Shown here in pieces: positions 6,041-20,482 of a DNA stretch of 64,000 bases. The position numbers and the translations under genes were made by a program. The first letter of the stretch is position 1. Each line of letters opens with the position of its first letter. The notes below the pieces were generated by a model that was not told the DNA's origin, did no database searches, and worked only from the letters and a program-made list of their open reading frames with translations. Source of the DNA: Aquimarina spongiae (GTDB lineage: Bacteria; Bacteroidota; Bacteroidia; Flavobacteriales; Flavobacteriaceae). The stretch is taken from positions 1 through 64,000 of the forward strand of contig NZ_FQYP01000003.1 in NCBI RefSeq assembly GCF_900141785.1, read 5' to 3'.

Positions 6041-6673
6041 ATGAAAGTTTTTGACTTTATAAAACAGGTGTTTGATCTGGTTGGAGTATTTATAAAGAAT
6101 AACAAGGAAGAGGATATTGATCTGAAATATTTTTCAAATTGGTTAGATCATCAATTGGACAATACAGCACAAAATGACGATTTTGGCATTACAGGACATA
6201 GTATTGATGCCGAAATAGCTGCATATATTGGAAGGATGAGTAGATATTCTAATTTCTACATCAAATCTGCCTTAGAAGAACTGCCCTTTACCACAGATAT
6301 GGATTTTGCCTTTACAGCAATCTTACACAGATCTCAACCTATCGGAAAAACGAATTTGATTAAAAAAATGGCGTATGATAAATCTTCAGGAATGGAAGTA
6401 ATTAAACGATTATTAAAAAATGGAATTATCGAGCAGTTTCCCAACCCAGAGGATAAGAGGGGTAAATTATTACGATTAACAAAAAAAGGCGAAGAAAATG
6501 TAATCCTCGCCTATGCCGAGGCCGGAAAGGCTGCAAAACTTGTAAGCGGTAATCTATCCAAAAAAGAACAACAGACGTTGCATCAACTCCTTAAAAAACT
6601 AGATAATTTTCATTATCCAATATATTTGAATGACGGAAAAGAGATTACCGAAATTCTAAACGAGTATTCTTGA
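6041..6673 (+). CDS. MarR family winged-helix regulator
   Basis: 210 residues, longer than the usual 140-160 because of an extra N-terminal segment of about 35 residues. The core holds a MarR winged helix: IGKTNLIKKMAYDKSSGMEVIKRLLKNG (roughly 105-132) as helix-turn-helix, then the wing with EQFPNPEDKRGKLLRLTKKG, whose D-x-R pattern is the MarR signature. C-terminal helices would form the dimer interface. It lies divergent to the TonB receptor gene and 126 nt before the surface-protein operon on the same strand, so either could be its target. MarR proteins usually respond to small ligands; none can be inferred here. Confidence 0.88.
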   Translation: MKVFDFIKQVFDLVGVFIKNNKEEDIDLKYFSNWLDHQLDNTAQNDDFGITGHSIDAEIAAYIGRMSRYSNFYIKSALEELPFTTDMDFAFTAILHRSQPIGKTNLIKKMAYDKSSGMEVIKRLLKNGIIEQFPNPEDKRGKLLRLTKKGEENVILAYAEAGKAAKLVSGNLSKKEQQTLHQLLKKLDNFHYPIYLNDGKEITEILNEYS

Positions 6674-6685
6674 AGATTTTGTTCT

Positions 6686-6693
6686 TAGATTTG
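6686..6693 (+). promoter_or_regulatory. possible -7 promoter box before the surface-protein operon
   Basis: TAGATTTG matches the Bacteroidota vegetative -7 consensus TAnnTTTG exactly. It lies about 107 nt before the ATG at 6800. A good -33 TTG element at the normal spacing is not evident, so this is tentative. Confidence 0.3.
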
Positions 6694-6799
6694 AAAATCG
6701 CAACAACTACATAAATTCAAAACTAAGATTCATCAATTCATACATTGAATCCATAAATTACTACATCCTATATATAAAGTGGTATAGTAATATTGATGA

Positions 6800-8455
6800 A
6801 TGGATTCGTCAAAATTAATAGTACTTCTATCACTATTTGGTCTATTGGCCACTACTAGTCGTGCTCAAGACTTATCAAAACTAGGAGACTCTACTGCCGT
6901 TCAGTTTTCGGGATCCGTGGGGGCTCGTACTATATTTTACAGTGCCAAAGGCGGTCCAGAAAGACGACAACCTTTCACCTATTTACTTACTGGCAACGCG
7001 GCTGTGAGCATTTATGATTTCAATATCCCTTTCAATTTCACTTTTGCCAATCAACAATTTCAATTCAGTCAACCTTTTAATCAAATAGGCGCCAGTCCAT
7101 CTTATAAATGGGTAAGGGCGCATTTGGGACACCGTAATATTGTGCTATCTCAATTCACCTTAGCCGGCCATCAAATGTTTGGAGCTGGGGTTGAAGTTAC
7201 CCCAGGAAAGTTTAGAGCAAGCATTATGTACGGGAGATTGCAACGGGCTGTACCTGAAGATACCACCTTGGTATCCCTTCGAAGACCTGCTTACGAACGC
7301 CGCGGAATGGGTGCAAAAATCGGATATGGTACTGGTACGGATTTTATTGATCTTATTGTATTCAAAGCAGAGGATGACGAAAACTCTTTGGATACAGAAG
7401 AATCCCCACAAACAATCACCCCGGGAGAAAATTTGGTCATTGGTTTGAATACCAGAAAAACGTTTTTCAAAAAAAAACTGTCTTTTTACTTTGATGGAGC
7501 GTTAAGTGCTTTTACGTTGGATAAAACATTAAGTGTAGCTATCCCAAAGGTTGATTTTTTAGACAACTTAGCTTCAGGTTTTATTACGACAAATGCCTCT
7601 ACTCAAATGTATACTGCCTTTAAAACAGGTATACGCTATCAGGGAAAAACATTTGGACTACTAACTCAAGCTCAGCGAATAGATGCAGATTATCGATCCA
7701 TGGGCCTTTATTTCATTAATAATGATGTATTAGCCTATAGTATCAATCCTTCATTTATCATTTGGAAAAGAAAAATACGAATTAATGGTGGGATTACTTT
7801 TCAACGAGATAATCTCAATAATAAAAAAATTGCCACCTCCAAACGAACTATACCTACCGTAAACATTGTCGTAGCACCTTCTCCTAGTTTAAATTTCACC
7901 GGGTCCTACACCAACCTGACCACATTAATGGAAGAAGGGGTTATCCCATTAGACAATGCATTTAAACAAGATCAAAAAAATCCAATCTACACAGTTACGG
8001 CCAATTATATCAAAAGCGATACTATACGTTCTCATTCTATCTCTTTATTTGGTAGCAGAAGCGAGCTTAAAGACGGGAATCCTCTTACGCAACAATTTTC
8101 AGAGTATGTAGGAAACTCGATCAATACAACCTACAATTTTACCCAAATGCAGCAGCATTATGGAGTTTATGTATCCTACAATTACAATGATCTACAAACA
8201 TTTACTGGCAAACTTCCAGGAAATGGCTTTTCCATAGGAGGGAACAAATCTTTCTTTGATCAAAAATGGAATATCTCATCAGCTTTTAGCTATGCTAAAC
8301 AGCAGGAAAATGAGAGTCAAAGTTTTGTTTTGTCATCCTCTTATCAATTAAAGAAACATCAAATCAGCTTAAGTGCTAATTACCTGAAAACAGAATTAAT
8401 TACGGGACCCTTTGATGAATTTACCGGGTTTATCAACTATGTATTACGATTTTAA
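6800..8455 (+). CDS. outer-membrane beta-barrel protein of the TANFOR operon
   Basis: 551 residues. Residues 1-22 are a signal peptide ending SRAQ. The rest alternates hydrophobic and polar residues in short strands (for example FNFTFANQQFQFSQPF and GFSIGGNKSFF) separated by polar turns, and the chain ends in VLRF, a C-terminal aromatic typical of outer-membrane barrels. No enzyme motif was found. It is the first gene of a unit with 13 nt before the giant protein gene, so it may act as that protein's outer-membrane port or anchor. I do not recognise a named family; the barrel call rests on strand pattern and signal peptide. An ATG at 6796 is out of frame, so 6800 is the start that gives the signal peptide. 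Confidence 0.75.
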   Translation: MDSSKLIVLLSLFGLLATTSRAQDLSKLGDSTAVQFSGSVGARTIFYSAKGGPERRQPFTYLLTGNAAVSIYDFNIPFNFTFANQQFQFSQPFNQIGASPSYKWVRAHLGHRNIVLSQFTLAGHQMFGAGVEVTPGKFRASIMYGRLQRAVPEDTTLVSLRRPAYERRGMGAKIGYGTGTDFIDLIVFKAEDDENSLDTEESPQTITPGENLVIGLNTRKTFFKKKLSFYFDGALSAFTLDKTLSVAIPKVDFLDNLASGFITTNASTQMYTAFKTGIRYQGKTFGLLTQAQRIDADYRSMGLYFINNDVLAYSINPSFIIWKRKIRINGGITFQRDNLNNKKIATSKRTIPTVNIVVAPSPSLNFTGSYTNLTTLMEEGVIPLDNAFKQDQKNPIYTVTANYIKSDTIRSHSISLFGSRSELKDGNPLTQQFSEYVGNSINTTYNFTQMQQHYGVYVSYNYNDLQTFTGKLPGNGFSIGGNKSFFDQKWNISSAFSYAKQQENESQSFVLSSSYQLKKHQISLSANYLKTELITGPFDEFTGFINYVLRF

Positions 8456-8468
8456 AAATAGGATAGTC

Positions 8469-11400
8469 ATGAAATTTTTTAAAAAACTTATAGCCTGTAG
8501 CACCACGTTCTTACTAATGGTTTTTAATCCCTCTTTACATGCCCAAAACGATGTGCAAGTGGTTACTCAAGTACTCCCTCCCTATTCTCCCTATTTTTCG
8601 GACTACATATCGTATGAAAACCGTTTGGTAATTCAACTTATCAATACTGTGGACGCCAGTGGAGGTGGAATAACAAGAGATGTACGACTAACCGCAACCA
8701 TAACTGGAGACAATGGTGTGTCACTAGTATTACCACCAACTTTTATTCCTCCAGTCCCCATTTCGCTACCGCCTATGGGAGTAACCAGACTTACCGGTAT
8801 TCAACTACAGGATTATTGGGATATTAACGCCTGGAATGTCTCAGGAATATCTGCTTCAGAAATTATCTTGGGTAATGGGCTTCCTGAAGGAAATTATGAG
8901 TTATGTATACGAGTACTTGATTACAGCTCCGGGACTCCACTTTCCCTTCCTGCACCGAGCGGATGTAGTTTTTTCAATATCAATTCTATCGAACCTCCCA
9001 TTCTATTACAGCCATCGTGTGGAGTAACTCTGGATAGCAATACACCTCAAAACATTCTCTTTTCCTGGGCAGTGCCTGCTGGCACTAATCCATCCCAAGT
9101 AGAATATGAATTGGCCATAATAGAGCTTTTTAATAATATGGATCCCAATCAGGCTTTTTTATCCTTCGGGAACACTCCTTTTTTTCAAAAGACCGTACCC
9201 ATTAATGTATATAATTATACCCTTAGCGATCCTCCGCTTGAACCTGGACGGACTTATGCGTATAGAGTGACCGCTGTAAACAAACTAGGAAACCCCAGAC
9301 CTCTTAATTTTAGGAATGGAGGAAGCAGCGAGGTGTGTACTTTTACCTACGGTAAGAGCCCAGAAATTAATATCACTTCGACTACTCCTCAAAATACCGA
9401 CGTAGCCATTACACAAATTAATATTGATGGAGATGATGTATTAGCAAATCCCCAAAATCAAAATACGCCCCCTGATCCTGACGACTCCCCAAATTGTATC
9501 TCAGACTGTATACAATCAGTTCCACAAAATACTACCCTTATTTCAAATCTATCTCCCGGGGAAGAAGTTGGTTTAGGTAAATTTTTGATGGAGATAATCC
9601 AGGCACAACATAACGGTAATGATTTCTCTGGTACTGGAAAAATATATATTAACTTTTTACAAATTCCTATTCTGGTTACTTTCAACAATCTAAAAGTAAA
9701 TACAGATAAGATAGTTTATGCAGGAGCTGCTTATGCTAAAGCTGAACCAGGTTTACCCAATAATCTGGAATTCTTAACTAAGCAACTACAAATGCCGCAG
9801 GTTTCCGAAGCTGTTTTTGAAAATGCAATAACCTATATCGAAAACGAAGGGAGAAAAGTACATCTGCTATCGGGACAAAATCAAGCCTTTGGAGTTCCTA
9901 TTTCCTGGGAAAATGGTGCTAACACCCTCACATTTTTTGGGATGATCTTTACTCCTGAAAAAGCGCATATAAATTTAGCTACTGGTTTTGAAGTTTACCC
10001 ATCAAATAATGAAAATAATCATGTACTCCTTACTGGAAGTAATTGTCTAAGACCTAATGGATTTGGATCAACTGGAGAATTGCAACTTCAAAACACAGTT
10101 TCGATTCCGATTTCGAATGCACTTACGCATACTTTCAAACCAGAAACTTCGGTAGGCTATGATTGTTCCGGAATTAGTAATATTCACTTGAAAGGCACAT
10201 TAACTTTTGGAAGAAATATAGCATTGCCCTTAAATGAACAAGGAAACGTTATCGAAGGAAATGTAACTGCAGACTACGAAACCGACATTACTAACTTTCA
10301 TGATTGGACACTGGAGATTCCAAAGTTAAGTCACCCGTTTACCATTCCTGGTTTGGTAGGATTTTCTCTTGACGCCAATGCTATTATTATTGATCAATCC
10401 CTATCCACAACTCCAAATCCTATTAACAAGGATGCCTTTTGGAAAGGCGTATATGCCGAAAATATTTCGGTGCAATTCCCGGAGTTCTTTCAAATTAATG
10501 ATACTCCTATAGAAAAAGAAGTTAGTCATTTTATCCTCGACAAAAACGGGGTTTCAGGAAAAATTGGTCCTTTCAACAACTTAATTTCTATCAACGAAGG
10601 AGCTGTTGGGGGTTGGCCCATTTCTGTCGATACATTTTCTATTATTTTGGAGGATAGCAACTTGGATGGGGCAGAGATTACTGGTAACGTCAAACTTCCA
10701 ATCGCGGATACTGAGTTAGGTTACGAAGTACTTTTCACTCTGGGTGAAAATCCTGAAGACGGCTTCGACATGAAATTTGATATTGTCACCCAGGAAGCCT
10801 ACGCTGTACCGATGTGGTTTGCACAATTACACCTCGAAAAAGGGTCAGAAGTGAACATCATTAAAGAAGGGAATACCTGGAAACCTTCTGCAAATTTGCA
10901 TGGTGGTATCGAGATAGACTGGGGGGTTAATAATACTCCCGATGATAGTTTGGTGTCTTCTTTCCAACTTCCCGAAGTAAACTTTACCAATTTGACCATT
11001 ACTCCAGGGCAAAACAATATTCCAGATATCAACTTTGGTGAGTTAGGCATAACCAATGCACAAGCCACTATCGCAGACTTTAGTTTTGATCTTAATGATA
11101 TCAAAGTCATAAACGAACCCAACGGTGATCTCGGACTAACACTGGACATTTTTGTACACCTTGATGAAGGTGATTTCTCAGTCGGAGGCAGCACAGCTTT
11201 TACGATTTGGGGAGCATATAAAAACAAAAAGTACATCTATAAAAAAACCAAACTCAATAGAATATCATTAACTGATGTTGATATCAATATCGCTACTATA
11301 AATGGAAACCTCTACCTTTTTGAGAAAGATGAGGTATACGGAAATGGTTTTAAAGGTGATTTTGATGTAAAACTTAATCAAATGGACATGAATTTTGCAG

Positions 11401-14400
11401 CCCTTATGCAATTTGGATCCATTAAAACCCAACAAGAAAATTATCGCTATTTCTATACAGATTCGTATCTAAAAATAGGTGGGAGCGGGATCCCGATTCC
11501 TCCTACTCCATTTGCGGTGTATGGTGGAAGTGGTGGTTTTTGGGTAAATATGAATTTGGCCAATGAACCTGATTCAAATGCTCCTCACAAAACTATTGAT
11601 CAGTTAAAGCTGGATAAAGAAATGAACGATGATCTGGCCATATCGCTACCTGCTGGAAATACTCGTTTTGAAGAGGATAAAAAGATCCCGGCCCAAGGAG
11701 GTATTGGTTTTTCTCAATCTATCATAGTTGGTGTCAATAGTGCAGAAACGCTATTTAATGCAGATTTAGGCTTTTTGATGGACTTCAATCTCAATGGCAG
11801 TCTAAAAGGAGAAATGAAAATGTTTGGTGATGGATATATCGTACAAGAATTAGATGGCAACCGGGGATCTGCATTTATTAAAGGTGATGTAGACCTAACC
11901 ATTGGTTATTTGGGTGAAGAAGAAAAGAATAACATCTTTTTTGACAATACTTCTACAGTCACTATTGACCTTTTAGACGGTTTGGTTACCGGGCAAGGTA
12001 CTTTACACCTATACGCAGATAAAGATACCTGGTTTCATAAATTAGGGTATTGGCAGAAACAATATCAAGATTTCCCGTGGCAAGATAAAAAGCGTGTTCA
12101 TTTGAGCCTTGGTGAGTTTGAAGGGCTAGACACACAAGTGAACAACAACAATTTGGATACAGGATTATATAGCTATTTTATGTTTGGACCCGATATCCCA
12201 GGACTACCAGAAATGCCATTAGATGTTCGAAATAACAACCCAAAAAACTGGGAAATGAATAATGAGCGTTATCAGGTTTTTACTGGTCCTAACTCCAGTT
12301 CTGGGGTAGCACTAGGTAGTGGTTTACACCTGGATACCGATTTGGATTTTCTTATTTTTTATTTAAAAGCAAAACATATCTCCGGATTTGATTTTACCCT
12401 TCGGGATGAAACAGGACTATGTGCTGGAGATTTTGGGTTAAACGGTTGGTATGCCAGAGGGCAAGCCTATGGGTATTTTAAAGGAGAAGCCGGAGTGAAA
12501 TTAGATCTGTGGGTTTGGAAAGGGGAAGCAAAGCTTATGGAGCTGGAAGCTGTTGCTGCTTTGCAAGCAGGATTGCCAAATCCAATATATTTAAATGGGA
12601 ATGTGAATGTGAATGGACAAGTTCTAGAGGGCTTATTGGACTTTAATGTAGATTTTGAAGTTGAGCTTGGAGAAGAATGTAAAAATCCAACCAGTGGTCC
12701 ATTTGATGAATACCCTATAATCGCTGAAGTGCTACCAGAAGATCAGGAAGAAGATGTTGACATTTTACGTCAAATGGAGGTCTCCTTTAATTTTCCAAAT
12801 GGACCTTTTGAATACACCGAATTAGACAAGAAAGGGAAAAAAGTGACACGTGAGTTTCAATACAATGTAGACTATTTTACCTTAGAATGGTTTGATGAAG
12901 AAAGTAATACAAATAAATCCAAAGATTTCTTCCCTGCCTATCGAGAAGACGGATATTCTGCTACGTTTACAGATCTAGACTTCTATTTCCCTCCAAAAAC
13001 CACATTTACCTATAGCATAGGTGTCACTGGCTACGAATTGGTAGATGGTGAAAAAGAAGAACGAGTTAAAGAAACTAAAATCGGAACTTTTACTACGGGA
13101 GCTTTTCCTACTAAAATTACCAAAGAAAGTATTTGGTTTAGCACGCCATTTATAGGAGAAAATTACTTTATCCCCACTAACTTCCCTAAAGGATATATCA
13201 CATTGCCCGTGGTACTACCGCATTGGACAGATCCTAATTTTTGGTATGTAGATGCTTTTAAATTAGGAAATACTTACCAAGGTCCTATGGCGAGTGGAAC
13301 TTTTGAATTTATAGCAAGATTCATTGATGTAAAAAGTAAAGATTATTACGATATCCCCTATCAGATCAATAATGCTGATGCACAAGGTGTATACGGTGGT
13401 AAATTGGTATTTGATTTCCCGCAGCGACTAGAAACAGGTAAGATCTACGAACTACAGCTTATGGTTATTTACACCCCCTCTATTAATAATTATGTTGCAA
13501 CATCTAACTCGGAAGACACCTATAAAAATGTACTCTTGGGCGGATCTGGACAGCAAAATGGAGGTAATAATAATGGACAAGGTTATCAAGTATTGCAAGC
13601 CAATCTTAATTTTAATAACAACAATATCCTTAATGCCAATTTTGTAACTCCAAAACCCAAACCCAATCTGGTTTTTCAAAATTCTTTGGCAAACGCCAAT
13701 AGCGGTAATCAAAACTTAGCTATCAAAAGAAAACATAGAGCTTTGCTAGGTGCTACAAAAACCTCAAATAAAGTAGAGTGGCCCATATTTGAAGGATTTA
13801 AATTTCATTTTAAAACCAGCAAATATAAAAGCCTATCACAAAAAATGGGTAACATCACTTACGAAACTACTAAAGTGGAACAATTCCCAAGCAATGTGGC
13901 AAATATTACAGATAATTCCCTAAAACCTTTAACTATTAATTTACCTATTATAGTACTTGAATGTGATGAAAATTTTGATGAAAAGACCTTATTCCCAGAA
14001 AAAGAAACTAAAATCGGATTTTTAAATAATAAGCTAACGGTACTAAGCTTTCAAAAACCACCACTTATTGAGCTAGCAAAACAAGCAACTTTTACAGGTA
14101 CCAGTATTCAATGGGGTGTTGGCAACCAGCAATATCCTGAATTAAGGAACAATTTCTGGAAAGCATATCCTGGATACAATGCCACAGCCTTAAAAACGAA
14201 CTACCATGTACCACAGAATCAAAGTGATTGGGCTCTGGTGTTGGAAACTAATGATTACACCTATCCATCAGAAGATTATTGGAGTCAACTATTACCCAGT
14301 CGTACGAACAACTCGATTTGGGGTGCAAACCGATATTTTGATAATGCTTTATACGAACCTTTTAATGATAGGCACTATCCCAATGTTGATGATGTCTTAT

Positions 14401-14897
14401 CCCTCAAAAAAGAAGAGCCTTTGTTGGCGTTGTACGCAGGGAACTACACCATAAAAAACATATATCATCAGGGGAAAAAAGTAGGTTTTACTACTACCCC
14501 TTTGAACTACAGCCCTCCAAATAACAATAATGGAGGTATGTGGATTCAAAATAATCAATGGCAAAACCAAAATCCACCATCTAAAAATGCATTTTTTGCA
14601 GTTGTAGATTACACAGAGTGGTTAGCCATACAGGATTGGCACAGATTTAAACGACACCTTTATAGAATAAACAATGAAGAAATCCAATTTAATGATGTTC
14701 AAGCAGATTATGATAGTAATATGCAGTTCTTGGAAGTAAGAGAAGGGGTTTCTGAATGGATATTAGAAAAAATGCCCTATTGGCAACATAGACGTACTAG
14801 CGGTTCACCTTCATTTAAAATTAAAAAATATGGTGGAGGTGCTACCATAGAACGAACATATACTGTGCCCGCAGATTTAAATAAAAACATCAATTAA
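8469..14897 (+). CDS. giant TANFOR-domain-like surface protein, 2142 residues
   Basis: The frame is open from 8412, but the start is placed at 8469 because MKFFKKLIACSTTFLLMVF begins a proper signal peptide (cleavage near HAQ) and removes overlap with the barrel gene. After it comes a segment of about 160 residues with PPYSPYFSDY, a following LxGIQLQDY stretch and LPEGNYELCIRVLDY. This resembles my memory of the TANFOR domain first noted in Tannerella forsythia. A fibronectin-III-like module (about 190-290) follows, then over 1000 residues of beta-rich, Gly/Asn-rich repeats-by-style without exact repeats. An Ig-like bacterial domain sits near residue 1417 (EVLPEDQEEDVD). No T9SS tail or LPXTG is present. 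It is probably a large exported envelope or surface scaffold. The domain name is from memory and unverified; exported giant protein is secure. Confidence 0.8.
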   Translation: MKFFKKLIACSTTFLLMVFNPSLHAQNDVQVVTQVLPPYSPYFSDYISYENRLVIQLINTVDASGGGITRDVRLTATITGDNGVSLVLPPTFIPPVPISLPPMGVTRLTGIQLQDYWDINAWNVSGISASEIILGNGLPEGNYELCIRVLDYSSGTPLSLPAPSGCSFFNINSIEPPILLQPSCGVTLDSNTPQNILFSWAVPAGTNPSQVEYELAIIELFNNMDPNQAFLSFGNTPFFQKTVPINVYNYTLSDPPLEPGRTYAYRVTAVNKLGNPRPLNFRNGGSSEVCTFTYGKSPEINITSTTPQNTDVAITQINIDGDDVLANPQNQNTPPDPDDSPNCISDCIQSVPQNTTLISNLSPGEEVGLGKFLMEIIQAQHNGNDFSGTGKIYINFLQIPILVTFNNLKVNTDKIVYAGAAYAKAEPGLPNNLEFLTKQLQMPQVSEAVFENAITYIENEGRKVHLLSGQNQAFGVPISWENGANTLTFFGMIFTPEKAHINLATGFEVYPSNNENNHVLLTGSNCLRPNGFGSTGELQLQNTVSIPISNALTHTFKPETSVGYDCSGISNIHLKGTLTFGRNIALPLNEQGNVIEGNVTADYETDITNFHDWTLEIPKLSHPFTIPGLVGFSLDANAIIIDQSLSTTPNPINKDAFWKGVYAENISVQFPEFFQINDTPIEKEVSHFILDKNGVSGKIGPFNNLISINEGAVGGWPISVDTFSIILEDSNLDGAEITGNVKLPIADTELGYEVLFTLGENPEDGFDMKFDIVTQEAYAVPMWFAQLHLEKGSEVNIIKEGNTWKPSANLHGGIEIDWGVNNTPDDSLVSSFQLPEVNFTNLTITPGQNNIPDINFGELGITNAQATIADFSFDLNDIKVINEPNGDLGLTLDIFVHLDEGDFSVGGSTAFTIWGAYKNKKYIYKKTKLNRISLTDVDINIATINGNLYLFEKDEVYGNGFKGDFDVKLNQMDMNFAALMQFGSIKTQQENYRYFYTDSYLKIGGSGIPIPPTPFAVYGGSGGFWVNMNLANEPDSNAPHKTIDQLKLDKEMNDDLAISLPAGNTRFEEDKKIPAQGGIGFSQSIIVGVNSAETLFNADLGFLMDFNLNGSLKGEMKMFGDGYIVQELDGNRGSAFIKGDVDLTIGYLGEEEKNNIFFDNTSTVTIDLLDGLVTGQGTLHLYADKDTWFHKLGYWQKQYQDFPWQDKKRVHLSLGEFEGLDTQVNNNNLDTGLYSYFMFGPDIPGLPEMPLDVRNNNPKNWEMNNERYQVFTGPNSSSGVALGSGLHLDTDLDFLIFYLKAKHISGFDFTLRDETGLCAGDFGLNGWYARGQAYGYFKGEAGVKLDLWVWKGEAKLMELEAVAALQAGLPNPIYLNGNVNVNGQVLEGLLDFNVDFEVELGEECKNPTSGPFDEYPIIAEVLPEDQEEDVDILRQMEVSFNFPNGPFEYTELDKKGKKVTREFQYNVDYFTLEWFDEESNTNKSKDFFPAYREDGYSATFTDLDFYFPPKTTFTYSIGVTGYELVDGEKEERVKETKIGTFTTGAFPTKITKESIWFSTPFIGENYFIPTNFPKGYITLPVVLPHWTDPNFWYVDAFKLGNTYQGPMASGTFEFIARFIDVKSKDYYDIPYQINNADAQGVYGGKLVFDFPQRLETGKIYELQLMVIYTPSINNYVATSNSEDTYKNVLLGGSGQQNGGNNNGQGYQVLQANLNFNNNNILNANFVTPKPKPNLVFQNSLANANSGNQNLAIKRKHRALLGATKTSNKVEWPIFEGFKFHFKTSKYKSLSQKMGNITYETTKVEQFPSNVANITDNSLKPLTINLPIIVLECDENFDEKTLFPEKETKIGFLNNKLTVLSFQKPPLIELAKQATFTGTSIQWGVGNQQYPELRNNFWKAYPGYNATALKTNYHVPQNQSDWALVLETNDYTYPSEDYWSQLLPSRTNNSIWGANRYFDNALYEPFNDRHYPNVDDVLSLKKEEPLLALYAGNYTIKNIYHQGKKVGFTTTPLNYSPPNNNNGGMWIQNNQWQNQNPPSKNAFFAVVDYTEWLAIQDWHRFKRHLYRINNEEIQFNDVQADYDSNMQFLEVREGVSEWILEKMPYWQHRRTSGSPSFKIKKYGGGATIERTYTVPADLNKNIN

Positions 14898-14908
14898 AGA
14901 ATAAGCTT

Positions 14909-16957
14909 ATGAAACGATTAACCCATATTATTATAGGTATTCTAATTTGCACTAGCTTACAACTTGCTTATTCGCAAAATAATAATGCTTCTCAAAAAAT
15001 GGTTCTAAAAACAAGAGCTTATCAAGACAGCATTGTACTGCGCTGGGTACCTAAAGATTTAAAAGCATGGCATGACATCAATGAGAACGGAATTACAGTT
15101 TTACGTACCAATATGGCTACTGATAAAAAGGAAATACTAACATTGCGACCATTGCTTCCCTACACCTTATCTACCTGGAAAACCAAAACAGATACTACCA
15201 ATATTTTTGTAGCCACAGCCGCACAGTGCCTTTTGGGCAAAACCAAAGTGACTTCAACAATTGCAGACAGTCATTTTAGTATGCGCTTATTGGCTTCAAA
15301 AGAGCAGAATAACACTCTGGCGTTTGCTGCTTACAGTGCCGATTTTTCAACACAAGCTGCAGATGGGCTTGCTTTCCGTTTTGTTGATACTTCAGTAAAA
15401 AGCAATAACAGTTATAATTACGAATTGCAAGTAGCAGGAAAGACCGTTTCTAACAAAGCATTTCAAAGATCAAAAGATATTTGGAAACCCAATAAAGTTA
15501 GTAATGTTCGAATAGAAACTAAAGAAGGAGCAATACATATTTATTGGTCAAAAGCCAGAAATAATTCACTATTCTCTGGATATTATATCGAGCGTGCGAC
15601 TGAAGGGAAGAATTTTAATCGAGTATCAAGCTCTATTATAAAGGCTACCTCTCAAGCAACCTATACACAACAACAATCTTACGCAGATATAGATGTAAAG
15701 GTTGGGGTTACCTATAGTTACCGAATTATTGGAGTAACTTCTTTTGGCGATTACGGGTTATATTCTGAAATTGTATCTGCAACACCTAAGCCCAAAATGA
15801 TGATTGCAACCATAGATAACTTGAAGGTTGCCGCTTCAAATGATACCACATTCCTCTTGAGTTGGAAGGAACCTGAGCTCCAAGAGCATACAAAAGGCTA
15901 TCACATTACAAGAAATGATACCAAGGAAGGACGTTACGAAAGAGTTTCTACTTCAATTTTACCTGTTGGTACTACTTCTTTTACGGATACACCTCCCAAT
16001 ACACAACGAGCTTATTTTTACAAAGTGATAAGTGAAGGAAAAGACGGAAAACTACTAGAATCTTCATCTTCTGCGGGAATGTTGACCGATGGCAAAGCTC
16101 CAGCAAGGCCAAAAGGATTAACGGGCACCATAGATTCTTTGGGTGTAGTCGCTATCTCATGGGAATTTGGTGAAGAAAAAGACCTAAAAGGGTATCGAGT
16201 TTACAGAACCGATGATCCCCAACAAGAATTTCGGCAGCTCACAAAAACCCCTGTTCCTGGCAATTATTACAGTGATACATTGGCATTGGCATCTCTAAAA
16301 GAGAATGTATACTACAAAATTGCTGCATTTGATTATAATTATAATCCTTCAGAACATTCAGAACTATTAGTGTTGAAACGACCAGATTTTGTAAAGCCAA
16401 TTGCTCCAAAAATAGTGAAGGTTAGTAAAGAAAACGGTGCAATTCAAATACGATGGAAAGAAAGCCCCAGTAAAGATGTAGTTACATATCGTTTGTATCG
16501 CAAAACATATGGACAAAAGGATGAGGAGGTCATAGCAGAGATCTCATCAAATACATCAAGTTATACTGATGACAATACAACCTCTAATACTACCTATCTC
16601 TATAAACTTAAGGCTATTGATCAAAACAAAAATGAGAGTATCTTTGGAAACGTTGTTTCATACAACAATACTTCTCAAACCTTAGAAACCCCTTTACTTG
16701 GAGGTAGATTCAACAAAAAAACTAAATGCTTTGATCTCAATTGGAGCTCTTCTGGGAATAGCGCTATCAAAACACTAATTTTCAGAAATGACGGTAATGG
16801 TTTTACCTTGTATCAAACCATAAATACCGGAAACACCAATTTTTCTGATACTTCTTTTTTTGAAACCAAAAAAGGCTATCAGTATCGGATTCAATGGGCG
16901 GATTCGTTTGGAAATGAATCCCCAATTAGTAATATTATAAGTATCACTTTTAAGTAA
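14909..16957 (+). CDS. fibronectin type III repeat protein
   Basis: 682 residues, starting 11 nt after the giant gene, so almost certainly cotranscribed. Signal peptide 1-22 (ending AYSQ). After a unique N-terminal region (about 25-185) there are about five FnIII-like modules (roughly 190-290, 300-395, 395-490, 495-590 and 600-682). They show the usual signatures: a W in the B strand (AISWEF, IQIRWKES), GYRVYR or TYRLYRK in the middle and YKIAAFD or YKLKAID near the end. It ends without a sorting signal. It is likely an envelope or surface adhesion/scaffold partner of the preceding protein. No catalytic motif was seen. Confidence 0.88.
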   Translation: MKRLTHIIIGILICTSLQLAYSQNNNASQKMVLKTRAYQDSIVLRWVPKDLKAWHDINENGITVLRTNMATDKKEILTLRPLLPYTLSTWKTKTDTTNIFVATAAQCLLGKTKVTSTIADSHFSMRLLASKEQNNTLAFAAYSADFSTQAADGLAFRFVDTSVKSNNSYNYELQVAGKTVSNKAFQRSKDIWKPNKVSNVRIETKEGAIHIYWSKARNNSLFSGYYIERATEGKNFNRVSSSIIKATSQATYTQQQSYADIDVKVGVTYSYRIIGVTSFGDYGLYSEIVSATPKPKMMIATIDNLKVAASNDTTFLLSWKEPELQEHTKGYHITRNDTKEGRYERVSTSILPVGTTSFTDTPPNTQRAYFYKVISEGKDGKLLESSSSAGMLTDGKAPARPKGLTGTIDSLGVVAISWEFGEEKDLKGYRVYRTDDPQQEFRQLTKTPVPGNYYSDTLALASLKENVYYKIAAFDYNYNPSEHSELLVLKRPDFVKPIAPKIVKVSKENGAIQIRWKESPSKDVVTYRLYRKTYGQKDEEVIAEISSNTSSYTDDNTTSNTTYLYKLKAIDQNKNESIFGNVVSYNNTSQTLETPLLGGRFNKKTKCFDLNWSSSGNSAIKTLIFRNDGNGFTLYQTINTGNTNFSDTSFFETKKGYQYRIQWADSFGNESPISNIISITFK

Positions 16958-16984
16958 ATCTTTGTTTCTTTATCTTTAGAGAGG

Positions 16985-18319
16985 ATGTTACTACTTGATT
17001 TGTATATACATGAAGAGTCGTCATTTCAGTTTCCTGTTCATTTATTTCTAGGAACCAGTTTCGCCTTTCTGATATGTTCTATTGCGATATATGCTGTAAA
17101 CAAAAAGTCAGAATTCCTATGGTACGCAGGTTATCTCCTCTGCGTAATAGTATATTTTTCTCATAAAAGTGATTTTATTCTGGCAATGATTTATGAGAAT
17201 CAGGATTCATTAGTTGCACATATAGTTAACGACACCTCGCAAATGAGTATCAACCTATGCTATCTTCTTTTTTCTATGGCATATTTGAATACAAAAAAGG
17301 ACTATACGAAGTTTCATAAGTTTCTTCAAGTAGTTGCAATCGCTATGATTATTTTCATGAGTATGCATACTATCTTACGATTAACAGGTAATTCGCATGC
17401 AAATCAGATACAATTGTTAAATATACAGCGATTAGTATTGTCCCTTTTTGTCATTTTTAACACCTTTTATCTTTTTCGTTATGGAAAAAACAAATTGGTT
17501 TATTTTGTCATTGCAGCATCTTTACTGTATGCCGGTGGAGCCATTGTAACCTGGCTTACCAGGGATTTTCATTTTATGGTTTATGGAGTTGGTCTTGAGA
17601 ATTTTGTTTTCTCTTTTGGTTTGGGATACAAAATTAAAAAACTCAGTTTTGAAAAATCTGAAGCAGAACGTTATGCATTACGAAATGAAATTCATTCGTT
17701 GAGAGCACAGATGAATCCACATTTTATCTTTAATTCATTAAATTCGATACAAGGTTTTATTTTAAAAGACAAAAAGAAGGAATCTATTAAATACCTGACC
17801 AGCTTCTCTACCCTTTTACGTAAAATTTTGGACACTTCGGAAAATGGAGTAATCTCACTAGAACAAGAGATCGAATTGCTAAAACGCTATCTAGAACTGG
17901 AAAGCCTTCGTTTTGATGGTAGTTTTAAGTACGATTTTGATGTTGATCCAGGTTTGGATATTTATAACATTGAAATTCCTATTTTATTGGTACAACCTTA
18001 TATCGAAAATGCCATTATTCATGGCCTAGCGCCCAAAAAAGAAGGAGACAAAACAATGAAAATTTCATTTATTGATGCAGATGAGTTTATTACTTGTTCT
18101 ATTAAGGATAGCGGTATTGGTCGTGAGGCCTCATATAAGTTGCAACAAACCAAGAGCATCTACCGAAAATCCAAAGGGATGTCACTTACACAAAAACGAC
18201 TAGAATTGATCAGCAAACATAAGGACAAAATGAATACTTATGTACATGTGGACGATCTTTATACCCAAGATGGGAAAGCGAATGGGACCAAAGTAACGAT
18301 CAAAATTTATAAGAACTGA
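16985..18319 (+). CDS. LytS-like sensor histidine kinase
   Basis: 444 residues. About seven hydrophobic segments lie between residues 15 and 215, forming a membrane sensor without a recognisable extracellular ligand domain. The His_kinase (PF06580-type) region begins near 235: EIHSLRAQMNPHFIFNSLNS, with phospho-acceptor H246. An N box follows in LLVQPYIENAIIHGL and a G box in DSGIGREA. It ends 2 nt before the LytTR regulator start, so the two form a translationally close pair. It starts 27 nt after the FnIII gene, linking sensing to the surface-protein genes. Expected reaction: ATP-dependent autophosphorylation and transfer to the partner regulator. Confidence 0.92.
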   Translation: MLLLDLYIHEESSFQFPVHLFLGTSFAFLICSIAIYAVNKKSEFLWYAGYLLCVIVYFSHKSDFILAMIYENQDSLVAHIVNDTSQMSINLCYLLFSMAYLNTKKDYTKFHKFLQVVAIAMIIFMSMHTILRLTGNSHANQIQLLNIQRLVLSLFVIFNTFYLFRYGKNKLVYFVIAASLLYAGGAIVTWLTRDFHFMVYGVGLENFVFSFGLGYKIKKLSFEKSEAERYALRNEIHSLRAQMNPHFIFNSLNSIQGFILKDKKKESIKYLTSFSTLLRKILDTSENGVISLEQEIELLKRYLELESLRFDGSFKYDFDVDPGLDIYNIEIPILLVQPYIENAIIHGLAPKKEGDKTMKISFIDADEFITCSIKDSGIGREASYKLQQTKSIYRKSKGMSLTQKRLELISKHKDKMNTYVHVDDLYTQDGKANGTKVTIKIYKN

Positions 18320-18321
18320 GT

Positions 18322-19077
18322 ATGGAGTTACATGTTGTTATCATAGAAGATGAAAAGAATAGTCTGGATACCCTATCTCATCTGTTATTAGATTTTTGCG
18401 AGAGTGTTACCATTTTGGGGAGTGCCAACAATGTTAATGAAGGGATCTCTCTCATCAAGGAAACCAATCCTGATCTGGTTTTTTTGGATATTGAGCTGCA
18501 TTCGGGAACTGGCTTTGACATTCTTCAAAAACTTGATCATATTGCTTTTGAAGTGATATTTACCACTGCTTTTGAACAATATGCGATAAAAGCCATAAAG
18601 TTCAGTTCTGTAGACTATTTACTCAAACCCATTGATCTGGATGAATTACAAAGTGCTTTGTCAAAGGTGCGTAGTAGAAAAGGAGATAAAGCGTACATCC
18701 AACAAGTGCAAAATTTGGTTAAAAATCTCGAAATACAAGATGTAACCAACAAAAAGATATGTTTATCCACTCACGAAGGAATCGAATTTGTAAAAGTATT
18801 AGATATTAGATATTGCAAAGCCAATGGGTCCTATACCTTGTTTTCTATAAAAGGACAATCGGATCAATTGGTGAGTAAAAACCTAAAAGAATTTGAAATG
18901 CTTTTGCAGGAGTACGACTTTATGAGGGTACACAACAGCTACCTCATCAATTTAAGAGAGGTAAAAAAATACATCAAATCCGAAGGTGGGTATATCATCA
19001 TGAATAACGGAGATCATATCAACCTTTCGCCTAGAAAAAAAGAGTTGTTCCTAGAGCGTATTGTAAATCTCCGTTAA
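18322..19077 (+). CDS. LytTR family response regulator
   Basis: 251 residues. The receiver domain (1-125) has acidic residues in IIEDEK, phospho-acceptor D56 in VFLDIEL, the TT pair in IFTTAFE and the conserved Lys in LLKPIDL. The LytTR DNA-binding domain (about 150-250) has typical features such as RYCKANGSYT and FMRVHNSYLINL. It is the partner of the kinase immediately upstream (2-nt gap) and last gene of the 6800-19077 unit. It probably regulates this operon or related surface genes by binding direct repeats, but I did not find a clear LytTR repeat pair upstream of 6800. Confidence 0.93.
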   Translation: MELHVVIIEDEKNSLDTLSHLLLDFCESVTILGSANNVNEGISLIKETNPDLVFLDIELHSGTGFDILQKLDHIAFEVIFTTAFEQYAIKAIKFSSVDYLLKPIDLDELQSALSKVRSRKGDKAYIQQVQNLVKNLEIQDVTNKKICLSTHEGIEFVKVLDIRYCKANGSYTLFSIKGQSDQLVSKNLKEFEMLLQEYDFMRVHNSYLINLREVKKYIKSEGGYIIMNNGDHINLSPRKKELFLERIVNLR

Positions 19078-19135
19078 TACCTCGACATTCACATTCTGCT
19101 GCCAAAAGAGTTCAGCACTGTACTACTTGCCGCAT

Positions 19136-20482
19136 TCATAGCCTCCTAATCTTTGGTACAGCAAGTGCTATAAGTAATATCGAGGCTACTAGAAGTGGCA
19201 ACATTCCTTGCATCGGAACCAAATCAGCTTTTGCTTTATGATATTCAGGTTTAAATTGTTTCCAGTCTACAGTATCCGCATGTTGCTGCTCAAAAATTTT
19301 GGGGTAAAAGAACAATCTCAAACTTTCATGAAACGCTTCTGTATCCTGCAGATAGTTCATATGTTGCCCCATACTAGTACCTGCTAGTTGATTAAAATAC
19401 AACTGCAAGTGCATATTAGGTACGACAGATGCAATCCACCTACTGGTTTGTTCACGAAGTTCAATCTTACTGCTTAATGCTTCTCGTTCTTTTTTAGAAT
19501 CATCATCTCCCATTTGTTGCATTGCATAATACCACAACCAATTAAACCCATCAGTTGGGTATCCATACTTTTCGAATTGTGGATAATGCGCATAAAACTT
19601 TTTGATCGTTGCAAGTTTATCAGTATCCCATTTTACATGATATCCATCACGTTGTGCAATGGCTGTACTCATTGCCTCGGGCACAGGATATTTTGAAGAC
19701 ACATATGCATTAATACCTGCGGGCAAAAGAATAATCAGCACCAACCAGATCGACAATAGCAATAATGCATTAAATCCCGTCGATTTTTTATAAATAATCA
19801 CAAAAAAGGATAGACTAAACCAAAAAACCAGATATAAGAATGACAGTCCGATCATCAATAAAAAATCCCTATTCAAGGGAATGTTCAGCATAAATTTTGC
19901 TACCAAAAAGAGGAAAATCAACACTACAAATAATAGAGCGAATCGAACCAAAAGTTTGCTAATGATAAACCCTAATTTTGATCGTGCCTGAATCGATACT
20001 AACCTCCATGTACCTGTTTCTGTCTCTTCTGAAATAAGGTTAAATGTCAAAACAATGACCAGCAACGGAAACAAATAGATAATCACAAAAGACAAGTCTA
20101 GATTACCCGATTGCAAATTCATAGGGTTTACCAAATCGGTATCAAACTTTTGCCCTTCGAAGGTTTTGATAGTAATACGTTGTACCGTAGGGTTTACATC
20201 CGCCTGACCGATAGATAATCCAGAAAGTGGATCCAAATCATTGATGTACGCAAACTTGGCATAATACAACAACAACCCTAAATCTTCATTATGAAGCGAT
20301 ACTTGTCTGTCAAAATGTTCTTCTTGATGAGCACGCACCTCGGCAATCGCATTTTGCTGCCGTTCTAAATGTTTGCTTCCAATAATGATTCCAACAATAC
20401 CTAGTATCGTAATCAATACCAAGCTAATCCAAACTTCTTTTGATCGAATACATTGCTGAAAAAATAATTTATACTTGATCAT
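19136..20482 (-). CDS. ABC-2 type permease subunit, DUF3526-like (second)
   Basis: 448 residues. An N-terminal membrane anchor (about 18-35) is followed by a large soluble loop, then transmembrane helices around 130-250 and a second periplasmic-style segment (about 260-410) before a final helix (about 425-442). This layout, with the loop around NGLWYY-like and TSRWIASVVPNMHLQL residues, resembles the DUF3526 group of ABC-2 permeases. Its start overlaps the previous permease stop by 4 nt (20479-20482), indicating coupled translation. It should form the membrane channel with the other permease and the ATPase at 24441-25136. Exporter direction is inferred from family; the cargo is unknown. Confidence 0.8.
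   Translation of the reverse strand: MIKYKLFFQQCIRSKEVWISLVLITILGIVGIIIGSKHLERQQNAIAEVRAHQEEHFDRQVSLHNEDLGLLLYYAKFAYINDLDPLSGLSIGQADVNPTVQRITIKTFEGQKFDTDLVNPMNLQSGNLDLSFVIIYLFPLLVIVLTFNLISEETETGTWRLVSIQARSKLGFIISKLLVRFALLFVVLIFLFLVAKFMLNIPLNRDFLLMIGLSFLYLVFWFSLSFFVIIYKKSTGFNALLLLSIWLVLIILLPAGINAYVSSKYPVPEAMSTAIAQRDGYHVKWDTDKLATIKKFYAHYPQFEKYGYPTDGFNWLWYYAMQQMGDDDSKKEREALSSKIELREQTSRWIASVVPNMHLQLYFNQLAGTSMGQHMNYLQDTEAFHESLRLFFYPKIFEQQHADTVDWKQFKPEYHKAKADLVPMQGMLPLLVASILLIALAVPKIRRL

Follow-up and report, generated by a model that had tools for sequence, protein, structure and literature searches.

A conserved gene module of Aquimarina spongiae as a candidate compact form of a TANFOR-related surface apparatus

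The TANFOR domain is described, in the main text of the one study found to treat it, as the N-terminal domain of polymorphic toxins of Bacteroidetes, which carry their toxins at the C-terminus (Jana, Salomon, Bosis 2020, PMC7073777). The same text reports that FnIII proteins (COG3401) and substrates of the type IX secretion system (T9SS) are enriched near TANFOR genes, and it leaves the export route open; the words barrel, operon, two-component, histidine kinase, LytTR and scaffold each occur in it 0 times. No other paper was found for “TANFOR domain”, “TIGR02542” or “T_forsyth_147” in the literature searched, which was mostly without subscription papers and was without bioRxiv preprints. Among two-component systems, a seven-transmembrane (7TM) kinase of the LytS type that binds a small metabolite is known in BtsS, whose ligand is pyruvate according to the available portion of the source (PMC10653868). 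The present analysis concerns an operon of five plus-strand genes at positions 6800 to 19077 of a 64,000-nucleotide stretch of the Aquimarina spongiae genome (contig NZ_FQYP01000003.1, positions 1 to 64,000; this whole stretch is called “the window”), one of whose products, a protein of 2142 residues, has a TANFOR-related N-terminus. The reading that is favoured here, if only just, is that a conserved TANFOR-related surface apparatus is encoded here by the first three genes in a compact, fused form, which would probably be toxin-less and regulated by the adjoining two-component pair.

The five genes lie where a first-pass annotation of the window had placed them, and the intergenic gaps that it gave, of 13, 11, 27 and 2 nt, agree with the open reading frame coordinates. 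The first gene (6800..8455, + strand) encodes a protein of 551 residues, designated “BAR”, which has a signal peptide and is a probable outer-membrane beta-barrel and module partner. The second (8469..14897, + strand) encodes the 2142-residue “giant”, which consists of a signal peptide, a TANFOR N-domain, a linker, an amphipathic beta core, a conserved region and a diverged tail; this length follows from the ATG at 8469, while an in-frame TTG further upstream makes the mechanical open reading frame one of 2161 residues. The third (14909..16957, + strand) encodes “FN”, a secreted FnIII-repeat protein of 682 residues, and the last two encode a LytS-like sensor kinase and a LytTR response regulator. 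The signal peptides of BAR, the giant and FN were read by eye, with a cut before Q in ..SRA/Q, ..LHA/Q and ..AYS/Q respectively.

The BAR-giant-FN unit is a real conserved module and not a chance cluster. The giant is matched at E<=1e-20 in 56 of 395 genomes of the class, and a strong match to BAR, with the threshold set by us at E<1e-85, is present in 54 of the 56 giant/TANFOR-positive genomes, compared with 7 of the 339 others (Fisher 4e-56); the two positive genomes without one are G417 and G435 (G, C and L designate genomes, contigs and loci). For the study of gene order, 20 neighbourhoods and 80 named loci were annotated with TANFOR, core, BAR and FN profiles. The named loci are the best-scoring of 524 that were confirmed through a single peptide pattern, and they lean to close relatives; by title they come from Bacteroidota, Ignavibacteria, Chlorobiota, Kapaibacteria, Kryptonium and a Rhodothermus bin, and 40 have a “fused” giant, in which TANFOR and core form one protein, and 40 the core alone. 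The labels, on which the sorting into fused and “split” loci rests, derive from home-made profiles whose first versions included the window sequences. In fused loci with room on the contig, the giant directly follows a same-strand BAR gene in 29 of 36, FN lies at most two genes downstream in 34 of 35 (as the very next gene in 23), and the three genes are contiguous in 25 of 32. Of the core-only loci, 30 of 36 have FN no more than two genes downstream, and 11 of 31 have BAR directly upstream. Conservation of the gene order in Bacteroidota, which the first-pass annotation had put forward as a check, is thus borne out for BAR, giant and FN; alternative orders are giant-barrel-FN (L071, L106, L113, L116) and giant-FN-barrel (L104, L107, L117). 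The annotation had also called the structure undescribed, and the BAR-giant-FN unit was not found described in the literature searched.

The patristic distances of BAR, giant/core and FN agree across 60 loci, the window included (Mantel r 0.68, 0.67 and 0.73, with 0 of 2000 permutations as high in each case), an agreement which shows joint inheritance and not contact, and from which shared descent is not removed. The alignments used here and below each comprise the window sequence and a part of the sequences available: 66 of 77 cores (A2), 48 of 49 barrels (A3), 29 of 67 FN proteins (A4) and 35 of 39 giants (A7); alignment A8 holds all 11 of those listed. In some fused relatives the giant is immediately followed by an additional gene (L076, L082, L100, L101, L105, L108, L121, L142).

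The first-pass annotation had called the giant TANFOR-like and proposed a search with TIGR02542. That curated model misses its threshold, giving 20.1 bits for the whole protein and 24.8 for the first 327 residues against a cut-off of 67, but a hidden Markov model (HMM) built from 18 separate TANFOR proteins matches residues 13-301 (8505..9371, + strand) with E=1.5e-54, and the profile-profile comparison of this region gives a probability of 100 and E=1.4e-59 over 272 columns. Its second half is FnIII-like, with a weak fn3 match at residues 182-275. The same HMM matches 56 of 57 giants, which were labelled with a profile mixing fused and separate TANFOR sequences and a few of which are counted twice. 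At E<=0.001 TIGR02542 finds 22 of 36 N-termini of fused giants and 4 of 11 of separate TANFOR proteins, and it is therefore insensitive for both kinds alike. Two further giants were noticed: that of Chryseolinea serpens (L101:9962-16345) is matched by the TANFOR profile three times consecutively (residues 10-178, 184-305 and 336-609), and the 3054-residue fused giant at L090:5456-14620 has a long stretch between TANFOR and the core, which begins at residue 1464.

The genome of A. spongiae holds relatives of the giant at two further places, both split (G000:C18:231798-253510 and G000:C10:150012-169844; L038-L041). One split gene encodes a core protein of ~1600 residues that matches within giant residues 559-1630, and another matches giant residues 14-296 solely, as a separate TANFOR protein, after which come genes of unassigned function. 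Both places hold a BAR homologue of ~800 residues, an FN homologue of ~700 residues and a protein with a T9SS-like tail, and one of the two also has a verified PKD protein; the ~800-residue BAR of L039, the one that was scanned, has an extra C-terminal stretch without a Pfam match. Given this split arrangement, the window operon is therefore the fused counterpart. Matches occur in 18 of 32 other genomes of the genus, and those listed are of the split or the TANFOR-only kind; the nearest fused relative found, L117 (= G038), belongs to another family and is 35% identical over residues 15-1798.

The two architectures were compared in a set of 97 loci, 52 fused and 45 split, with the window excluded (the 80 named loci and 20 neighbourhoods, minus contigs seen twice: L073, L077, L083). 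Near-copies were kept in this set (L110/L111, L158/L162, L129/L149), so that the p-values given below are optimistic. A separate TANFOR gene is found within the available flanks of 0 of the 52 fused loci and 17 of the 45 split ones. On a 68-row FastTree tree with local support, from which 30 of 98 rows were dropped by our own choice as near-copies or short, the fused/split label needs 4 changes, two of which rest on L097 and L159, where an N-terminus may be missing or undetected. The fused pair L140/L166 is nested in the main split group on starred branches, and L140, L166 and L118 are the giants that score highest against the separate-TANFOR profile (240, 236 and 243 bits). As far as these sequences allow, TANFOR and core were probably joined or parted more than once. 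That they are seen both fused and split is a “Rosetta-stone” sign of partnership.

The core of the giant, residues 480-1410 (9906..12698, + strand), has an exceptionally continuous amphipathic-beta pattern and a homologous region in split-type cores. Its mean beta-minus-alpha hydrophobic moment, a measure devised for this analysis that gives no fold, is 0.414, and the maximum in a background of 216 unlabelled proteins of at least 400 residues from related loci is 0.234. The mean moments of whole families are 0.300 for the core (67 rows), 0.236 for TamB (15), 0.156 for BAR (49), 0.067 for SprA (16) and -0.034 for FN (30), and the core alignment A2 has 25 invariant columns over its 67 rows. The pattern agrees with a very long series of amphipathic strands. 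It could also be explained by a conduit like TAM, in which lipids or unfolded protein would travel along a TamB-like hydrophobic beta groove to BAR: the amphipathicity of the core resembles and, at 0.300 for the family and 0.414 for the window, exceeds that of TamB in 15 genomes, and a barrel gene adjoins the giant. Such a conduit is nevertheless improbable, given that hhalign detects no homology to TamB (probability 0.7% for the core and 23% for BAR), that the giant has by eye a cleavable signal and not an inner-membrane anchor, and that the window genome encodes its own TamB.

Other relatives were also looked for. The comparison of core with SprA by hhalign gives 0.1%, sequence searches of core and BAR against solved structures found none, neither the barrel nor the core of the window matches a Pfam family above cut-off, and the TamB domain PF04357 has no Pfam match in the window giant; a relationship of either core or BAR to SprA, to TamB or to any solved structure was accordingly rejected. 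A short-core variant of ~950-980 residues occurs with FN and BAR in L085, L086 and L087, and a protein of ~1100 residues with a T9SS-like tail is also present in L085 and L087. A relative of the short-core gene, G427:C51:5498-8032, has one internal TAA stop.

The core is followed by a conserved region, residues 1411-1845 (12699..14003, + strand), with near-invariant residues. A profile of the other members finds residues 1591-1845 with E=3.3e-15, and S1784, K1792 and E1834 are kept in 99% of 98 aligned rows. An early indication from sparse columns of that 98-row alignment, that the C-terminus is conserved to the very end, was abandoned, since it holds to residue 1845 and fails for the last ~300 residues. 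The diverged tail, residues 1846-2142 (14004..14894, + strand), is where an alternative to the toxin-less reading has to be weighed, namely that the operon arms the cell, with the giant as a polymorphic toxin of the TANFOR class and its C-terminal ~300 residues as an effector that escapes recognition. The TANFOR N-domain is present, the published class carries C-terminal toxins (PMC7073777, in the main text), some fused relatives have the extra gene after the giant noted above, and the tails of the window, L117 and eight others of 89 (L071, L074, L078, L088, L090, L104, L111, L152) escape the family profile. The last ~300 residues evolve far faster than the remainder of the giant.

Against a polymorphic tail, however, an eightfold test places the last ~300 residues of 79 of the 89 members in a single recognisable family, which fused giants and split cores have in common; in a half-split test 145 of 176 tails were recognised and 0 reversed controls. 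The window tail, moreover, matches that of L097 with E=6.5e-6, including 26 residues that are 58% identical near 2036-2061, and because the L097 tail is itself recognised and so matches both the window tail and the family, the window tail appears to be a fast-changing family end and not a toxin. No toxin model of Pfam or NCBIfam matches the window giant, no NCBIfam model matches the last 120 residues of 48 giant/core tails at E<=0.01, and no immunity gene follows the giant, the next genes being FN, the kinase and the regulator after gaps of 11, 27 and 2 nt. The defining C-terminal toxin of the class is thus without a model here, and the window tail is tied to the shared family tail solely through L097. 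The toxin reading is judged improbable.

The first-pass annotation named the first gene an outer-membrane barrel, a claim which is likely at the level of the family and gains nothing from the beta pattern of the window protein itself. In the BAR alignment (A3, 49 rows) Q23, directly after the signal peptide, and the C-terminal Y547 and F551 are near-invariant, and the family mean of the moment is 0.156; these features make BAR a likely outer-membrane barrel, so far as can be judged from sequence. The window BAR has no Pfam match, an Omp85-type barrel included, no NCBIfam match and no match in the PDB by sequence, and its own moment is 0.031. Weak and scattered Pfam matches occur among the 49 members (OMP_b-brl in 2, OMP_b-brl_3 in 1). 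The moment is a poor test for barrels, as SprA, a known barrel, scores just 0.067. Distant relatives of BAR are found within longer proteins of about 780-970 residues in genomes without a giant match (e.g. G279, G370, G146; E about 1e-36 to 1e-39), and there may be a wider barrel family beyond BAR.

FN had been described as a five-module FnIII protein. The FnIII character is confirmed (fn3, 9.7e-14), but three stretches pass, and the number of five is not fully verified. Small proteins of 156-280 residues with T9SS-like tails lie next to FN in L077/L155, L081, L091 and L099, and one gene off in L098, L110 and L111; they are perhaps a T9SS-secreted extra part that is absent from the window.

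The large proteins of the window lack a T9SS tail, as the first-pass annotation had stated: no T9SS sorting domain is found in BAR, the giant or FN at E up to 1, and a C-terminal sorting domain (CTD) of type A or B is found on 0 of 48 giant/core tails, the window included (the tail alignment, A5, holds the window and 47 of 75 further giant/core tails as well as 68 of 116 neighbour tails, and TIGR04183 matches 21 of the 116 rows in it). Export by this system is still conceivable for a surface complex whose giant and FN exit with a T9SS-secreted partner or via an unrecognised T9SS signal. SprA is present in 39 of 39 genomes searched (that of the window and 38 reached via 39 of the 40 named fused loci), and a comparison by eye places it in 56 of 56 giant-positive genomes of the class; by a home-made profile, a same-strand T9SS-CTD protein lies at most four genes away in 25 of 52 fused and 14 of 45 split loci, and T9SS substrates are among the genes reported as enriched near TANFOR genes in the main text of PMC7073777. 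But SprA is found in 385 of 395 class genomes anyway and is useless as a discriminator for the module, there is no CTD protein in the window operon, and the barrel that travels with the module offers an alternative route. Dependence on T9SS is therefore thought unlikely.

The fourth gene (16985..18319, + strand) encodes a kinase of 444 residues, with a 7TMR-DISM membrane domain at residues 20-216 (PF07695, 7TMR-DISM_7TM, 2.6e-18) and a His_kinase domain at 235-313 (PF06580, 4.5e-24), and the fifth (18322..19077, + strand) a regulator of 251 residues, with REC at residues 5-113 (Response_reg, 6.1e-17) and LytTR at 153-245 (5.1e-14). The LytS-like kinase and LytTR regulator of the first-pass annotation are hence both matched, the former as a His_kinase with a membrane sensor; its view of the five genes as a self-contained system is not supported, as the pair is inconstant. 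Same-strand two-component genes at most two genes away from the module are found in 17 of 52 fused loci, compared with 0 of 45 split loci (p=6e-6, not corrected for descent). Within fused loci they make up 32 of 166 near and 17 of 219 far genes (p=0.0007), and within split loci 0 of 110 near and 2 of 183 far genes. Home-made profiles, in part seeded from fused loci, served to find these genes. In a Pfam scan of the last 420 residues of the 110 near genes of split loci, reported for the first 25 of 107 families so that a single-member family could be hidden, no two-component family reaches two members; SprB repeats occur in 18. On the 68-row tree the trait changes 11 times, i.e. by repeated gain or loss.

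The association does not extend to particular proteins. The sensors comprise 7TMR-DISM in the window, Reg_prop propellers (L072, L098), Y_Y_Y (L152) and an SBP_bac_3 domain (L104), all of LytTR-type systems, and LuxR-type regulators with TPR kinases occur at the fused loci L155 and L110. The proposal that the system senses its own state is accordingly not sustained, as the sensors differ widely among fused loci and nothing shows that the pair senses the module; because BtsS binds pyruvate, a soluble ligand is as likely for the window kinase. A module-specific LytTR lineage was considered and rejected: the window regulator grouped with that of L104 (45% identity, support 94/88) in a set of 24, made up of 16 of the 41 LytTR places of its own genome, the window and seven from module loci, but closer regulators (54-51%) lie at module-free places. 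That the kinase and regulator are chance neighbours which control other genes is rather unlikely, and it has observations in its favour: the genome has 41 LytTR-domain places, the window regulator among them, and the eight closest relatives of the regulator inspected in a search of 395 genomes lie in module-free stretches of 9-15 kb. The gaps of 27 and 2 nt on the same strand, the near-module enrichment in fused loci and the repeated changes on the tree speak for a connection. It is concluded that two-component control is a recurrent habit of the fused module and that the particular pair was borrowed.

Taken as a mechanism, the favoured reading would run as follows. BAR, as an outer-membrane barrel, would anchor the giant or let it pass; the giant would combine a TANFOR docking domain with a ~1000-residue amphipathic beta core forming an elongated groove, shell or stalk; and FN would extend or stabilise the assembly. 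At split loci, a separate TANFOR protein of the polymorphic-toxin class would dock on the same BAR/core/FN set. The fused form would have TANFOR built into the core, and the unit would be a surface structure with a contact, adhesion or envelope function, whose expression would be tuned by the adjoining two-component system, in the window the 7TM LytS/LytTR pair. The module may work like a surface display or export assembly. The parts of export port and giant scaffold, which the first-pass annotation gave to the barrel and the giant, are likewise putative. A bolder version, which we regard as doubtful, holds that BAR, core and FN are a TANFOR delivery machine, an outer-membrane nanostructure independent of T9SS, whose TamB-like or shell-like core exports or displays TANFOR carriers; the window form, with the TANFOR plug built in, would then mark a change from a weapon launcher to a regulated surface organ without separate cargo.

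Several observations weigh against the reading of the module as a fused, regulated and toxin-less surface apparatus. The amphipathic pattern of the core fits a groove, a shell or a beta-helix alike. The moment of the window BAR is at the 62nd percentile of the background and thus unremarkable. The window tail is unrecognised by the family tail profile (E=23 and 2.1), as is the tail of its nearest relative, L117, whose BLASTP alignment ends at residue 1793, and a different function in the last ~300 residues of the giant is possible. No fused full-length giant is among the genus matches listed, so the role in the window may differ. Fused or split status was read from contigs, some of which are cut, and the “split” L097 starts at a contig end. 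The contrast in two-component genes between fused and split loci, finally, comes down to 4 independent pairs once descent is considered, for which a sign test gives p of at least 0.25, and 35 of the 52 fused loci are without a same-strand two-component gene nearby, which also favours chance neighbours.

The intergenic region before BAR (6674..6799, + strand) is presumed from its position to hold the promoter and has several short inverted repeats; promoter-like sites over 6400-19400 are no more frequent than in shuffles, a terminator scan did likewise no better, and a tandem-repeat scan gave nothing useful. Upstream lies a MarR-type regulator gene on the same strand (6041-6673, 126 nt before BAR) and a TonB receptor on the opposite strand, and downstream lie convergent minus-strand genes, seemingly unrelated (two ABC-2 permeases, a TonB receptor and an ABC ATPase). 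In the part of the window from 30000 to 64000, all but two of the open reading frames of at least 100 residues that start past 30000 are on the minus strand.

The question of how TANFOR toxins are exported gains two concrete suspects, the barrel and the giant beta core that travel with TANFOR proteins, and a fused form without a recognised toxin lets the apparatus be studied alone. If BAR and core are indeed a delivery or display machine, they would make up a new surface system for a large group of bacteria; if they are not, the fused operon would still encode an uncharacterised and widely inherited envelope structure.

Compared with described systems, the module shares its genomes with the type IX secretion system and its cargo (SprA, TIGR04183 tails) and has T9SS-CTD proteins next door in many relatives, but BAR, the giant and FN of the window have no sorting domain, and BAR has no NCBIfam match. 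With a TamB/AsmA-like protein and its partner barrel (TAM) it shares, to judge from sequence periodicity, a long protein of strongly amphipathic beta character whose gene adjoins that of a probable barrel; it differs in that no sequence homology was detected and in having no membrane anchor by eye and no Pfam Omp85-type match in the window BAR. The module is not filed under either system, because a defining feature of each was looked for and not found. The kinase and regulator resemble LytS/LytTR systems such as BtsS/BtsR, as far as the available portion of PMC10653868 describes them, in that a 7TM LytS-type kinase adjoins a LytTR regulator, but the window pair adjoins a surface module and not a transporter. 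The TANFOR polymorphic toxins, as they appear in the main text of PMC7073777, share with the giant the homologous N-terminal ~290 residues, a Sec-type signal (by eye), a large size, FnIII-like parts and nearby FnIII genes; the window differs from them in that it has no recognised toxin or immunity gene and that its TANFOR region is fused to the core.

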